Shown: positions 17,068 through 22,806 of the stretch, one piece after another | How positions within the stretch are numbered: position 1 is the first letter of the stretch | How the letters are laid out: each line of letters opens with the position of its first letter | DNA from: Brevundimonas subvibrioides | Lineage (GTDB): Bacteria > Pseudomonadota > Alphaproteobacteria > Caulobacterales > Caulobacteraceae | Assembly (NCBI RefSeq): GCF_002280785.1 | Contig: NZ_NCEQ01000006.1 | Coordinates: forward strand, 62,001-126,000 | Direction: 5' to 3' | Length of the DNA: 64,000 nucleotides | Program-made: the position numbers and the translations under genes | The notes under the pieces: model-generated | Database searches by the model: none | Told to the model about the DNA's origin: nothing | The model's input: only the letters and a program-made list of their open reading frames with translations

Positions 17068-18024
17068 TCAGGCGGCGCTGGTCTCGACCGGCGCCGCCGC
17101 CTCGACCTCCCAGCGGATGTTGCGCGGGTCAATCTTCCGCCCGGTCGCGATGTCGCAGACCACTGCCGAGATCGGGTCGACCGTCCCGGTTTCGATCAGC
17201 CGCAGCGGCGAGCCGTCCGGGCACAGCCATCGCTCCGACCAGCCGTGCATGGCCATGATCATCGGATAGAGGTCGCGGCCCGCCTCGGTCAGCCGGTATT
17301 CGAACCGCGGCGGCGCCTTCTGATAGAGGCGCTTCTCCAGCACCCCCTGCAACACCATGGTCTTCAGCCGGTCGGCGAGGATGTTGGTCGCCACGCCCAG
17401 CGCTTCGTGGATTTCGTCGAACCGCCGCAGGCGGAAGAAGGCGGCGGCCAGCACGGCCCAGCTCCAGTAGTCGCCCATGATGTCGGTCGAGCGATCGATG
17501 ATCGCCCGGTCGGTCTCGATCGGCTGGGTACGCCGCCGACGCGAGGTCGGCGGGGCGATGGGGACCAGGCCCTCGCGCACCTCCCAGCGGACGTGATGCG
17601 GCTCGATCGGTCGACCGCCCTCATGGTCGAAGACCGCAGGCGTGACCCGCGCGCCCGTCTCCCGGTCGAAGAAGGCCATGGCGTAGCGTTCCTGAAGCGG
17701 CGAACGCGCCCATTTCCGCTCCCACTGACCCTGCATGACGGCGACCCCGAACATGTCGAGACCCATCTCGGTCAGCCGGTATTCCATCCGCGTCGCCGAC
17801 CCCCTGGCCTCGCGCTGTTCCAGCAGGCCTGCGGCCGTCAGCCGGTTCAGCCGGTCGGTCAGGACGCTGCGCGGCATGCCCAGCCGATCGCGCCAGTGCG
17901 AGAAGCGCCGCGCGCCATAGAAGGCCTCGCGCAGGATCAACTGGGTCCAGGCGTCGCCGGTCACGGCAAAGGCGCGGGCCACGGGATTACCCATGATCAG
18001 GTCGCGGGTGGAGGGAAGCGTCAC
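17068..18024 (-). CDS. Transcriptional regulator with two tandem HxlR winged-helix domains
   Basis: A 318-residue protein made of two HxlR-type winged helix-turn-helix domains, at about 8-100 (WTQLILREAFYGARRFSHWRDRLGMPRSVLTDRL) and about 178-265 (WSWAVLAAAFFRLRRFDEIHEALGVATNILADRL). Single-domain HxlR proteins of about 110-150 residues act as dimers; a fused tandem would work as an internal pseudo-dimer. The N-terminal cysteine common in HxlR proteins is absent. A GTG at 18024 is used here; the ATG ten codons later is an alternative. It diverges from the feruloyl-CoA-synthetase-like gene and is probably the cluster regulator, sensing a pathway compound; this is inferred from position. Confidence 0.85.
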   Translation of the reverse strand: MTLPSTRDLIMGNPVARAFAVTGDAWTQLILREAFYGARRFSHWRDRLGMPRSVLTDRLNRLTAAGLLEQREARGSATRMEYRLTEMGLDMFGVAVMQGQWERKWARSPLQERYAMAFFDRETGARVTPAVFDHEGGRPIEPHHVRWEVREGLVPIAPPTSRRRRTQPIETDRAIIDRSTDIMGDYWSWAVLAAAFFRLRRFDEIHEALGVATNILADRLKTMVLQGVLEKRLYQKAPPRFEYRLTEAGRDLYPMIMAMHGWSERWLCPDGSPLRLIETGTVDPISAVVCDIATGRKIDPRNIRWEVEAAAPVETSAA

Positions 18025-18152: not shown

Positions 18153-19979
18153 ATGACCGACACGCTTTCCGCCATCGACCTGACCGCCGCGCCCTGTCGT
18201 CCGGTGCGGTTCGGAGAAGTGGGGGTGGAGATCGAGCGCCGTCCCGACGGGGTGGTCATCGTCTCTGCCAGGGCGCCGCTGAAACCCTACGACCCCAACC
18301 TGGCCGCCACCTTCCGGCGTCATGCCGATGCGACGCCGGACCGGCCGTGGCTGGCGAGGCGAGAGGGACCGGAGCGGGACTGGACCCGACTGACCTACGG
18401 CGAGGGTTGGTCGCGCGTGGCCTCGGTCGCCGCCTGGCTGATGGATCGCGGGGTGACCGCCGACCGGCCGATCCTGGTCCTGTCGGAGAATTCGCTGAAC
18501 CACGCGGTCCTGATCTTCGCCGGAATGGTGGCGGGCGTCCCGGTCACCTCGGTCAGCGTCAACTATTCGCTGCTGTCGACCGACTTCGAGCGGCTGCGCC
18601 ACGTCGTCGACCTGATCCGGCCAGGCGTGGTCTACGCGGAACAGGGCGGGCTCTTCGCCGCAGCCATCGCCGCCGTCGCGCCCGATGACGCGATCATTGT
18701 CACCGCCGCGCCGGGGATTCCGGGCGCCGTCGACTGGAGCGAGGCTGTCGGCTTCCCGGCGCCGGACCTGTCCGCTCACATCGCCGCCCTCGACCCGACG
18801 AAACCGGCCCGCTACCTCCTGACTTCCGGCTCGACCGGACGGCCCAAGGCGGTGATCCACACCATGGCCATGGCGACGGGCAACACCCACTCGGGCTTCC
18901 AGGCCATGGGCGACGCCTTCGCCTGGGACCGTCAGGCGCTCGACTGGCTGCCCTGGAGCCACATCGCCGGCTCGTCGCTGATGACCAATATCACCTGCCT
19001 CGGCGGCGCCCTCTACATCGACGACGGGCGACCGATGCCCGGCAAGTTCGACGAGACGATCCGGAACCTGAAGGAGATTCCGCTTCGCTACTACGGGACC
19101 ATGCCGAACGGCTATGCGATGCTGGCCGATGCGTTGGAGGCCGATGGAGACTTCGCTCTCCGCTTCTTCACCGAGCTGCGCGCCATGCTGTTCGGCGGCG
19201 CGGGCCTGCCCCAGGCGCTGCATGACCGGCTGCAACGGATCGCGGTGCGCGCCACGGGACGGCGGTTCGTCTTCGTCTCCGGCTACGGCTCGACCGAGAC
19301 CGGTTCGGCGATCAGCTACACATGGTGGGAAGACACCCGCGTCGGCATCGGCCTGCCGGTCCCGGGCGCGGCGTTCAAGCTGGCGCCCTGCGACGGCGTC
19401 TATGAGGTGCGGGTCAAGGCGCCGTCCGTCACGCCCGGCTATTTCGCCGACCCGGACCAGACCGCTGCGGCCTTCGACGAGGAGGGGTTCCTGCGCATGG
19501 AGGACCTCGCCGACTTCCACGACCGTGACCGGCCGGAAGGCGGCCTGTATTTCGCCGGCCGCCGTGCGGAGCAGTTCAAGCTTATGAACGGCACCTTCGT
19601 CATCGCCGGTCGCCTTAGGGATTCCCTGCTCGGCCGGCTCGCCGGCGTGGTGCGCGAGGTCGTCATCTGCGGTGATGGCGAGGCCGAGGTCGCCGTCCTT
19701 GCCTGGGCCGATCTGGAGGGTGTCCGTCGCCTGACCGGGGGGGCGGACACGGATCATCCGGCCGTCGTCTCCGCCGTCGCCCAAGCGCTTGCGTCTCACA
19801 ACCGCGACAACCCCGGCCAGTCCAGCCGTATCGGTCGTCTGTTGTTCCTCGCCGATCCGCCAGACCCGGAGGCGCACGAAGTCTCAGACAAGGGCTCGAT
19901 CAACCGACGGATGGTGCTGAACCGGCGGGCGGACGACGTGGCGCGGCTGTTCGCGGGCGAAGGGATCGGGCCAGCCTGA
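18153..19979 (+). CDS. Feruloyl-CoA synthetase-like AMP-binding protein
   Basis: A 608-residue ANL-superfamily ligase with the long N-terminal region typical of feruloyl-CoA synthetases (PVRFGEVGVEIERRPDG, APLKPYDPNLAATFRRHA, LTYGEGWSRV, VSVNYSLLSTDFERLRHV). The phosphate loop is LLTSGSTGRPKAVIHT and the adenine region is GYGSTETGS. The hinge GRRAEQFKLMNGTFV differs from the GRxKDxI of ordinary CoA ligases, as in the feruloyl-CoA group. Expected reaction: activation of a cinnamate-like acid with ATP and CoA. It starts at the ATG at 18153, 11 bases after AGGA, and diverges from the HxlR-type regulator. No enoyl-CoA hydratase/lyase gene (ech) is visible, so the classical ferulate pathway is incomplete here. 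Confidence 0.8.
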   Translation: MTDTLSAIDLTAAPCRPVRFGEVGVEIERRPDGVVIVSARAPLKPYDPNLAATFRRHADATPDRPWLARREGPERDWTRLTYGEGWSRVASVAAWLMDRGVTADRPILVLSENSLNHAVLIFAGMVAGVPVTSVSVNYSLLSTDFERLRHVVDLIRPGVVYAEQGGLFAAAIAAVAPDDAIIVTAAPGIPGAVDWSEAVGFPAPDLSAHIAALDPTKPARYLLTSGSTGRPKAVIHTMAMATGNTHSGFQAMGDAFAWDRQALDWLPWSHIAGSSLMTNITCLGGALYIDDGRPMPGKFDETIRNLKEIPLRYYGTMPNGYAMLADALEADGDFALRFFTELRAMLFGGAGLPQALHDRLQRIAVRATGRRFVFVSGYGSTETGSAISYTWWEDTRVGIGLPVPGAAFKLAPCDGVYEVRVKAPSVTPGYFADPDQTAAAFDEEGFLRMEDLADFHDRDRPEGGLYFAGRRAEQFKLMNGTFVIAGRLRDSLLGRLAGVVREVVICGDGEAEVAVLAWADLEGVRRLTGGADTDHPAVVSAVAQALASHNRDNPGQSSRIGRLLFLADPPDPEAHEVSDKGSINRRMVLNRRADDVARLFAGEGIGPA

Positions 19980-20012: not shown

Positions 20013-20972
20013 TCAACCCAGCTCCGGTCCGCCCGTCGGGTCCCTCGGATCCAGCGGCAGCCCCGCCGCCTGTCTCGCCTTCAGCACCCGCAGCCAGCCG
20101 TGCATGGCCTCGCAGTCCAGACCGTGCATCATCAGCCGGAACCCCGCCTGCAGCGTCGACAACGTCACCAGCGGGTGCCCGTTCTTGACGAAATGCATGT
20201 GGTAGTCGGTCCCGAGAATCCGGCCGATATAGATGCCCACGATCTCGTCCAGCTGCAGCGAATGGCTGGCCCGCATGAAGTCGGCGCGGGGCAGCATCAG
20301 GGCATAGAGCGGGGTGTAGAACTCGACCGCCGTCTGGATGTCGATGCGGTTCAGCGGGCCGGTCGGGAAGGTCTCGAAGTCCGGCTCGATGTCCGACAGC
20401 ATGGAGAAGTCGACCCGCTCGGGCGGCGTGATCTCCTTGCCGGCGGCCCGCAGAGCCATGTTCAGCTCGATGATGAAGTTGAAGATGTTCAGGTCGTGCT
20501 GGAGGAAGACATTGTCCTCCAGGTCCTTCAGGGTCAGGGGCTTCAGCGGCACGGTCTTGACCAGGGCCGGATCGACGCCGGCATTGGCCTTCATGAAGGC
20601 CAGCAACTCCGTCCCGACGTGGAAATGCCGCAGAATCAATGTGTTGCACTCGGGGCTGCCGAAGGTCCGAAGGCCCCAGTGGATGGACTTGTGCAACAGG
20701 CCGTTCAGGTTCGGGTAGCGCGGCGAGATCGCCCGCAGCACCTTCACGAGGCCGAAGAACAGGAAGACCAGCGGCCGCGAGACCGGGAACAGCCAGCGCC
20801 GGGACCACGACCGCGCGCCCAGCAACAGCGCCCGCTTCGCCTGCGGATCGATCGGCAGGGAGTGGTCGAGATAGAGCGCCAGCCACGGGTCGGGATCGTT
20901 GGCGTCATAGCGGCGCGCATCGAACGGATCGGTCTTCCACCCGGCCGTGTCGCCGCCGTCGGACAGGCTCAC
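20013..20972 (-). CDS. Uncharacterised protein (possibly DUF6999 family), third gene of KAS III operon
   Basis: A 319-residue protein whose function is not recognised; it may belong to the DUF6999 family, a recollection that is not certain. It is rich in His/Glu pairs that could bind metal (H116 and H118 with E122, H159-D160, E169, H237 with E243). One hydrophobic stretch near 66-80 (RPLVFLFFGLVKVL) could be a membrane anchor. Its ATG overlaps the stop of the heme-oxygenase-like gene (ATGA), so it is made together with that enzyme and the KAS III-like protein. A role in tailoring, handling or transferring their lipid product is an inference. The gene ends at a family B hairpin. Confidence 0.75.
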   Translation of the reverse strand: MSLSDGGDTAGWKTDPFDARRYDANDPDPWLALYLDHSLPIDPQAKRALLLGARSWSRRWLFPVSRPLVFLFFGLVKVLRAISPRYPNLNGLLHKSIHWGLRTFGSPECNTLILRHFHVGTELLAFMKANAGVDPALVKTVPLKPLTLKDLEDNVFLQHDLNIFNFIIELNMALRAAGKEITPPERVDFSMLSDIEPDFETFPTGPLNRIDIQTAVEFYTPLYALMLPRADFMRASHSLQLDEIVGIYIGRILGTDYHMHFVKNGHPLVTLSTLQAGFRLMMHGLDCEAMHGWLRVLKARQAAGLPLDPRDPTGGPELG

Positions 20973-21664
20973 GCCGCGATCTCCTCGATCTGCAGCGCAT
21001 ACAGCCGCGCTGTGACCTTGGCGGTCATTACGATGCGTTCGGCCACGGCGGCGTCGGGGAGGACCATGCGCAGCATCTCTTCGAACTCGCGCATGTGCTC
21101 GGCGTCGTTCTCGCCGTGATAGAGCAGGAACCGCACCGCCTCGTCGGGCAGGTTCAGACGCTCCTTGACCAGCCGGCCCCAGGGCGCGGCCTTGATCGAG
21201 CCCAGCCCCTCGATGATGAACATGGCGCCCAGCAGGCCGAACGGGTCGGGCTTGGACGCCTCATGGAACATCCAGGCCGAGAGGGCCTCGGAGCCGACGT
21301 TCTTGGGCGCCGAGCGGATCACCTCGACCTCGCCGCCGGAACAGACGAAGTCGGCTTCCAGCAGGCGGAAGTCGCGATGTTCGGTCACCGCATGGCGCAT
21401 CAGGGTCGAGCGCAGTTCCAGATGGGCCTCGCCGACGTTCGACGCCGCCCGGCTCATCCACAGCGCCCCGTCCTTCACCTGCTGGCGCAGGTTGATCAGG
21501 AACAGCTGATAGTCGGCCAGTTCGAACCGGCCGCGCGTCAGCTTGCGGATCAGGGGCGTCGCCTCCAGCCGTTGTTCGAAATCGGCGAAGACCACGGCCA
21601 GCTTGCGCAGGGTGTCCGCGACCTGGTCGTCCCCCCGCTGCTCAATGCGTGAACCGTCCGCCAT
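20969..21664 (-). CDS. Iron-containing redox enzyme family protein (heme-oxygenase-like diiron fold)
   Basis: A 231-residue all-helical protein of the heme-oxygenase-like / TenA-PqqC superfamily. The C-terminal helix H183-x3-D187-x2-H190 (YHGENDAEH) and E152 (FIIEGLG) fit the metal ligands of heme-oxygenase-like diiron oxidases such as UndA, BesC and CADD. The N-terminal ligands would come from H91, E95 and H96 but are less clear. Members of this fold use O2 to decarboxylate, desaturate or cleave fatty acids and amino acids. The start ATG at 21664 overlaps the KAS III-like stop (TGATG), and its stop overlaps the next gene (ATGA). An oxidative step on the condensing enzyme's product is the likely role. 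Confidence 0.8.
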   Translation of the reverse strand: MADGSRIEQRGDDQVADTLRKLAVVFADFEQRLEATPLIRKLTRGRFELADYQLFLINLRQQVKDGALWMSRAASNVGEAHLELRSTLMRHAVTEHRDFRLLEADFVCSGGEVEVIRSAPKNVGSEALSAWMFHEASKPDPFGLLGAMFIIEGLGSIKAAPWGRLVKERLNLPDEAVRFLLYHGENDAEHMREFEEMLRMVLPDAAVAERIVMTAKVTARLYALQIEEIAA

Positions 21665-22806
21665 CACACTACCTCGCACATCATGAACCCGACCATGGCC
21701 CGTCCGCTCTCGGGCACGATCAGCAGGACCTTCTCGCCCCGCTTCGCCCGCCCCGATTTCATGAACGCGTCCAGCATGACCCAGATCGAGGCCGCGCCGA
21801 TGTTGCCCACGGTCGGCAGGTTCGAGAACCACTTTTCCTCGGGGATCATGGCGGCGGTGCTGTTCAGGACCGAGACGATCTCCTCCCGCAGCGACCGGGC
21901 CGAATAGTGACACAGCAGGTGATCGACCTCGTCCGGCACGATCCGCCCCTGATCGACCTTCTCCAGCCAGACGCCGATCCAGGCGCGGATGACGATCTTC
22001 AACAGCTCGAAATCCTGCACCAGGGCGATCGACCCCGACGCATGGGCTGCGACCGGCCCCGCATGGCTCCAGGCCGACTTCATGTCCGCCCGGTCGGCGA
22101 AGGTGGAGCCCGCCCACATACAGGGATCGAACCTGCCGGCCAGCGAGGTCAGGTCGATCCAGTCGATCTTCAGCGACAGGCCGTCCGGTCTGGGTTTCGG
22201 CTCCATCACCACCGCGCCGGCCCCATCCGACAGGGTGAAGCGCAGGAAGTCCGCCTCGACCCGCGCCCGACCCTTGGCGTCGACCAGCGACGTGCCCTCA
22301 TAGAACTCTGGCCGGAACCAGCGAGACGAGAACTCGCCCGCCGCCGCCGCCGCGACCTCGGCCTCTCCGGCCCGGACCTGCAGCCACGCCCCCTTGGCCG
22401 CCATCAGGGCGGAGGCGCAGACGGACTGATAGCTGGCGATCTCGATCGGGCCGGCGCCCAGTTCCGCATGCACGGCGCTGGCGTGGCCGGGGACGATGTA
22501 GTCGCCCTGGGTCGTGGCCGTGGCCAGGTGCCCGAGGTCGCCGACCGACAGCCCCGCATCCTCCAGCGCCGCCTTCGTCGCCTCAGCCGTCATCGAGGCG
22601 TTGGAATGCAGCGGGCGGCCCTCGGGCGTCAGGGCATAGTGGCGCGTCTCGACCCCGTTCCAGCGCAGGGCCCGCCGACCGACTGCGGAGCTGCGCCGTC
22701 CGATGCGGCCGATGAAGTCCTCCATCACCTCGACGCCGACAGGTTCGCCGGGCAGGAACGCGCCGGTTCCCGTGATGTAGACGTCGCGAAGCAGACCCGG
22801 AGACAT
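21664..22806 (-). CDS. 3-oxoacyl-ACP synthase III-like condensing enzyme
   Basis: A 380-residue FabH/OleA-type condensing enzyme with the full catalytic triad: C130 (SYQSVCASAL), H300 (LLCHYSAR) and N335 (LPTVGNIGAAS). It joins acyl-CoA or acyl-ACP units by decarboxylative or head-to-head condensation. The sequence is longer and more divergent than housekeeping FabH (about 320-330 residues), which argues for a specialised role. The chosen start (MSPGLLRDVYITGTG, ATG at 22806) fits the family N-terminus; the frame is open further upstream without similarity. It heads a tightly overlapping three-gene operon and diverges from an SMR transporter gene (22979). Its acyl substrate cannot be read from sequence. 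Confidence 0.87.
   Translation of the reverse strand: MSPGLLRDVYITGTGAFLPGEPVGVEVMEDFIGRIGRRSSAVGRRALRWNGVETRHYALTPEGRPLHSNASMTAEATKAALEDAGLSVGDLGHLATATTQGDYIVPGHASAVHAELGAGPIEIASYQSVCASALMAAKGAWLQVRAGEAEVAAAAAGEFSSRWFRPEFYEGTSLVDAKGRARVEADFLRFTLSDGAGAVVMEPKPRPDGLSLKIDWIDLTSLAGRFDPCMWAGSTFADRADMKSAWSHAGPVAAHASGSIALVQDFELLKIVIRAWIGVWLEKVDQGRIVPDEVDHLLCHYSARSLREEIVSVLNSTAAMIPEEKWFSNLPTVGNIGAASIWVMLDAFMKSGRAKRGEKVLLIVPESGRAMVGFMMCEVV

Follow-up and report, generated by a model that had tools for sequence, protein, structure and literature searches.

Do three overlapping genes of Brevundimonas subvibrioides form one functional unit and, if so, what could such a unit make? The window considered here is the whole stretch of 64,000 nucleotides that was analysed, and the three genes lie on its minus strand. 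The ketosynthase gene K (22806-21664, minus) encodes 380 aa. It is followed by H (21664-20969, minus), a heme-oxygenase-like (PF14518) protein of 231 aa counted from the ATG at 21664, the reading frame holding one additional GTG codon upstream of this ATG, and by D (20972-20013, minus), a DUF6999 (PF22523) protein of 319 aa with a GTG start. K and H overlap by 1 base (TGATG), the final base of the K stop codon being also the first base of H, while H and D overlap by 4 bases (GTGA); the three overlapping genes of the original prediction are real and lie where it placed them. The nearest named relative of this K, 95% identical, is the K of a Brevundimonas MAG. Beyond D, an acyl-CoA synthetase-like gene (18153-19979) is found in convergent orientation and is outside the trio unit. 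Adjoining it at 17068-18024, on the minus strand, is a regulator gene whose single product matches the HxlR-type helix-turn-helix twice. The promoter/terminator scan displayed no promoter-like sites and 2 terminator-like sites versus 1.1 expected, which is uninformative, and no Rfam match at the gathering threshold was observed within the window.

The conservation of the trio was examined by a search with D alone. Directly upstream of D, K and H were found in 26/26 contigs, K being cut by the contig end in 3 of them. These contigs come from Brevundimonas, Caulobacter, Phenylobacterium, Hyphomonadaceae and Sneathiella and from the planctomycetes Gemmata and Limnoglobus, the Planctomycetes being represented by two loci (L026, L027) only. 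Furthermore, all three genes are present in 22 of 24 further D-bearing places (11/13 in one set and 11/11 in another), although these places may partly repeat genomes of the 26 contigs. Indeed, L085 is probably from the same genome as L020 and therefore the D-bearing sets overlap. Within the own family of the source, gene context was read in 4 of the 10 D-bearing genomes other than the source itself. The trio is also carried by a Pseudoalteromonas plasmid. D was found in 6/289 alphaproteobacterial genomes, 5/299 genomes of the phylum sample, 6/274 and 10/200 genomes of the class and the order of G439 respectively, and 11/119 genomes of the own family. Among the 289 alphaproteobacterial genomes, the six that bear D have H at E 1.1e-87 or better, with the next best hit at 2.5e-19, and K at E<=1e-40 was observed in the same six and in the fragmentary genome G064. 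Hence K, H and D are one conserved unit, which extends beyond this strain from Caulobacterales to Planctomycetes in the neighbourhood survey, and the module is widespread and patchy.

Incomplete loci were observed as well. G064 shows K at E 9.2e-140, no D and, on a different contig, a weak HDO hit of E 4.4e-16; the contig with K is 3,162 bases long and runs on for 58 bases past the K match, and the genome is 68% complete, so that the assembly may lack H and D. In G611, one of the two exceptions among the 24 further places, both K and D are broken and no H match was found. K of L015 is matched only as far as residue 342, and L023 has an in-frame stop within D. G631 (L050 7889-9912), the other exception, displays DUF6999 only, near an ORF named IS3-transposase-like from its sequence, which looks like a trio disrupted by an insertion. 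In the phage collection, no K match was found at E<=1e-5.

Regarding the first protein, Pfam finds the KAS III C-terminal domain in K, and the predicted C130-H300-N335 triad is present and invariant in 37/37 rows (36 trio members and 1 Streptomyces relative). This and all other invariance counts exclude duplicate loci, L052, the L023 row of D and every K row shorter than 340 aa. With the FabH model K scores 61.7 bits, below the cut-off of 292.1, and a separate FabH-like ORF is found on another contig (C21) of the same genome; for these reasons K is not the housekeeping FabH, in line with the divergence originally noted. The best NCBIfam model for K is the StlD/DarB ketosynthase family NF005293, with 339.6 bits for a cut-off of 450, and the DarB model NF053539 gives 292.7 bits for a cut-off of 550, both scores thus being below the curated limits. 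The StlD/DarB alignment is full-length, with K residues 9-380 on model positions 1-378, and 19/19 members of the K alignment A3 (18 trio members and 1 Streptomyces protein) match the model. Moreover, the nearest solved protein is StlD (5gk0, E 6.1e-69), the next different one being FabH at 1.1e-11. StlD (5gk0-5gk2) is a ring-forming ketosynthase. K is nearest to the StlD/DarB ketosynthases, yet under the curated cut-offs, and is not filed as DarB. The earlier view that the locus matches no known pathway overlooked this relationship, with its 339.6 bits and its StlD match.

K is like these enzymes over its full length, with the Cys-His-Asn triad, but it differs in falling below both cut-offs and in having H and D as downstream neighbours. 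Published DAR clusters pair darB with darA, according to PMC3949708 and PMC4414361, and the former describes DarB as the cyclase and DarA as the aromatase of the DAR pathways. In Photorhabdus, cyclohexanediones are both intermediates and signals (PMC4414361). Since K is nearest to StlD/DarB, a product of the cyclohexanedione or resorcinol type is no less likely than an alkene or ketone. DarB-like ketosynthases were also observed in other settings. On the Bacteroidales plasmids L059 (7361-9131), L093 (2412-4137) and L094 (2409-4134) a regulator gene (TetR or helix-turn-helix) is found directly before the ketosynthase, which has no adjoining H or D. On the linear Streptomyces plasmid L045 (7703-15349) a DarB-like ketosynthase, 41% identical to K, is located between an acyl carrier protein gene and genes for a flavin monooxygenase, FabF and a P450, in what is possibly a natural-product cluster.

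The second protein, H, carries the PF14518 domain, and its AlphaFold2 model, built from 25 aligned rows, has a mean pLDDT of 94. The model matches 3dde (Z 27.2), CADD (24.6), HrmI (21.2) and UndA (20.0), while heme oxygenases, TenA and PqqC give Z 20-22, i.e. as good as UndA. As modelled, H has the heme-oxygenase-like fold, which is common to HDOs, heme oxygenases, TenA and PqqC. With the HDOs (UndA, CADD, SznF, BesC, HrmI) H shares this fold, together with E152 and H183-x3-D187-x2-H190 on helices 2 and 3, residues that had been pointed out from the start and that are invariant in 39/39 rows. Helix 1, in contrast, has H91-x3-E95-x2-D98 in place of the usual E-H pair, and this in 39/39 trio members versus E95-x2-H98 in 12/12 non-trio relatives. 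Position by position, residue 98 is Asp in all 39 trio members versus His in all 12 relatives, and residue 91 is His in all 39 versus Tyr in 11/12. The 12 non-trio HDOs compared comprise all 8 weaker H hits among the class genomes and 4 taken from the 20 non-trio plasmid records. The HDO motif reference was taken from PMC11363339, not from the ligand numbers of UndA, CADD and SznF; in this survey, ~ 85% of HDO groups carry E-H-X-H-D-H or E-H-X-H-E-H. Hence the proposed likeness to the ligands of UndA, BesC and CADD stands for helices 2 and 3 but not for the helix-1 pair. H has an HDO fold with a non-canonical helix 1, and the rearrangement of the helix-1 residues is new here.

The absence of the usual helix-1 E-H pair means that oxidase activity of H is not assured and, judging from the residues, the change could abolish metal binding. 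This brings in an improbable alternative in which H is a scaffold without oxidase chemistry, metal-poor or cofactorless in the manner of TenA and PqqC, that would bind the K product while D does the chemistry. The replacement of the helix-1 His of the non-trio relatives by Asp in every trio member, the common fold with TenA and PqqC (Z 20-22) and the invariant His, Asp and Glu residues of D, which could hold a metal, are consistent with it. However, seven potential ligands of H (H91, E95, D98, E152, H183, D187 and H190) are invariant in 39/39 rows, which is more than a scaffold needs. Moreover, H91, E95 and D98 (i, i+4, i+7) lie on one helix face, and H91, which precedes E95 by about one helical turn, could take over from the lost helix-1 His.

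A second, unlikely alternative is the UndA-like route first proposed, in which the beta-keto or lengthened acyl product of K would be decarboxylated or desaturated by H with O2, giving an alkene, a ketone or a related hydrocarbon, with D as carrier or membrane partner. H indeed has the UndA fold (Z 20.0) and retains E152 and the H-x3-D-x2-H motif. On the other hand, K is nearest to ring-forming ketosynthases, 3dde and CADD are closer to H in fold than UndA, and helix 1 is unlike the E-H pair that PMC11363339 reports for UndA, CADD, SznF and BesC.

Among the nearest non-trio relatives of H is 3dde (Sden_3740, structural genomics), which keeps His at position 98 and, as read from the alignment, has His at position 91 as well. 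A non-trio HDO of G064, L100 (G064:C273:2700-3800), also displays His at both 91 and 98 and is a possible intermediate. Given this double His, both 3dde and L100 look like intermediates of a ligand shift. Plasmid HDOs from a cluster of T_hemolysin, AMP ligase, HDO and SDR genes are near H in sequence, but have His at 98 and another gene context. These clusters, whose first gene is annotated 'thermostable hemolysin' (PF12261), were observed on L060 (870-4544), L061 (753-4586), L062 (844-4412) and L063 (1839-5409). In L063 the AMP ligase and the HDO are one protein, which makes it a second case, besides K-H, of an HDO fused to an acyl-handling enzyme.

The third protein, D, is a member of DUF6999, as it matches PF22523 with 369.5 bits over positions 2-274 of 275 for a cut-off of 27. 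PF22523 has no stated function, and DUF6999 is named in no paper of the open-access literature searched. The His/Glu residues noted earlier in this protein are real and partly invariant: H116, H159, D160, D211, D242, H283 and E288 are found in 39/39 rows (38 trio members). The D model is helical with a mean pLDDT of 82.6. It has one hydrophobic segment towards the N-terminus; its most hydrophobic stretch, residues 61-79 with a mean hydropathy of 1.8, hints at membrane contact but is no proof of it. Foldseek of the model against the PDB gave a best E of only 2.4, VIA-align on the Foldseek candidates reached Z 3.4 at best, and a PDB search with the DUF6999 sequence profile had no match at E<=10; this missing fold match does not establish a new fold. 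With respect to DUF6999 being a second, hidden HDO related to H, comparison of the D and H profiles by hhalign, both profiles being shallow, gave a probability of 0.2% over 13 columns.

In 13 loci K and H are joined in one ORF, namely L026 and L027 among the planctomycetes, and L046-L049 and L086-L092 among the proteobacteria. Pfam finds both K and H domains in all three fused ORFs scanned, and in L026 a stop occurs eleven codons before the end of K-H. On the K tree, which contains long branches, the fused proteins need two changes in the best tree, while a single origin (one clade) of the fusion is not rejected (p-AU 0.207). A fixed stoichiometry had been deduced from the gene overlaps, which alone are weak evidence for it; the K-H fusion is better evidence. 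The fusion also bears on a very improbable reading in which H is a stress protein that would keep peroxide or free iron low, the role proposed for DtpC of Acinetobacter, while K and D would adjust membrane lipids. According to PMC13232832, the HDO-like domain of DtpC is needed for desiccation tolerance and residues E143, H153 and H232 matter; DtpC having no known product there, HDOs outside biosynthesis may exist. However, according to the same paper the DtpC gene sits with katE and with no ketosynthase, whereas H, being fused to K in 13 loci, is linked to acyl chemistry.

Flanking genes vary among the alphaproteobacterial trio loci. In the proteobacterial order of G439, by comparison, a PF04116 fatty-acid hydroxylase and/or a PF00487 desaturase is found just upstream of the trio in 10/10 D-bearing genomes: 7 of them have both genes, 2 have only the hydroxylase and 1 has only the desaturase. 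These Pfam domains were scanned in L048, L089 and L091, and assigned by similarity in the other loci; the L091 desaturase matches in two frames. Apart from overlapping antisense frames and minority ORFs, the trio has no further recurrent neighbour in this order, and no acyl carrier protein gene was seen as a conserved trio neighbour. The window's own locus has neither the PF04116 hydroxylase nor the PF00487 desaturase. The hydroxylase and desaturase neighbours are the best hint at a lipid substrate and, in this one order, would also suit the hydrocarbon or fatty-acid chemistry of the UndA-like alternative.

The operon, the co-occurrence, the fusion, the nearest family of K, the H fold and the helix-1 residues come from computation, whereas in the following proposal all reactions, the metals, the product and what D does are inferred. 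The reading that we put forward, tentatively and at somewhat less than even chances, is that the trio is a self-contained lipid module in which K condenses, H oxidises with O2 and D is the third partner. By condensing two acyl thioesters, K would most likely give a 2,5-dialkyl-cyclohexane-1,3-dione or else a beta-keto compound close to it. As a variant HDO adjoining or fused to K, H would then oxidise this product with O2, either by dehydrogenation/aromatisation or by hydroxylation, the step assigned to the aromatase DarA in DAR pathways. D would probably be a membrane-associated finishing enzyme that completes or anchors the step. Our guess is that H or D takes the place of DarA, and the product is probably a lipid not yet described. 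In a more specific and rather unlikely form of this proposal, the trio would be a DarA-independent, O2-dependent route to ring lipids, in which K hands a cyclic diketone directly, and inside a single polypeptide where the two are fused, to an H that represents a novel HDO subclass, its helix-1 His having moved seven residues, from 98 to 91, with the DUF6999 protein as third enzyme. The sub-cut-off scores of K, the helix-1 change and the lack of a known function for D could shift the prediction of the product, while the finding of a conserved module is unaffected.

Compared with the original prediction of a condensation followed by an O2-dependent oxidation, the part that holds is the coupling in one, probably lipid, pathway, given the co-occurrence, the K-H fusion and the lipid-gene neighbours in one order, together with the heme-oxygenase-like fold. 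An alkene or ketone as product, however, is not favoured over the cyclohexanedione/resorcinol type. The observation of the trio is sound and its first interpretation is partly right: the locus brings together known families, one unusual site and one protein with no known function. In the open-access literature searched, no description of the trio was found.

A Caulobacter vibrioides control genome matched both DUF6999 and PF14518, and the question could therefore be tested in this organism once the trio is confirmed there. Furthermore, with K and H naturally fused, one protein would serve as a biocatalyst for two steps. For the families concerned, the trio offers a testable function for DUF6999 and extends a rapidly growing oxidase superfamily by what appears to be a new arrangement of ligands. 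Finally, it predicts, for many environmental bacteria, a lipid or signal not yet seen.
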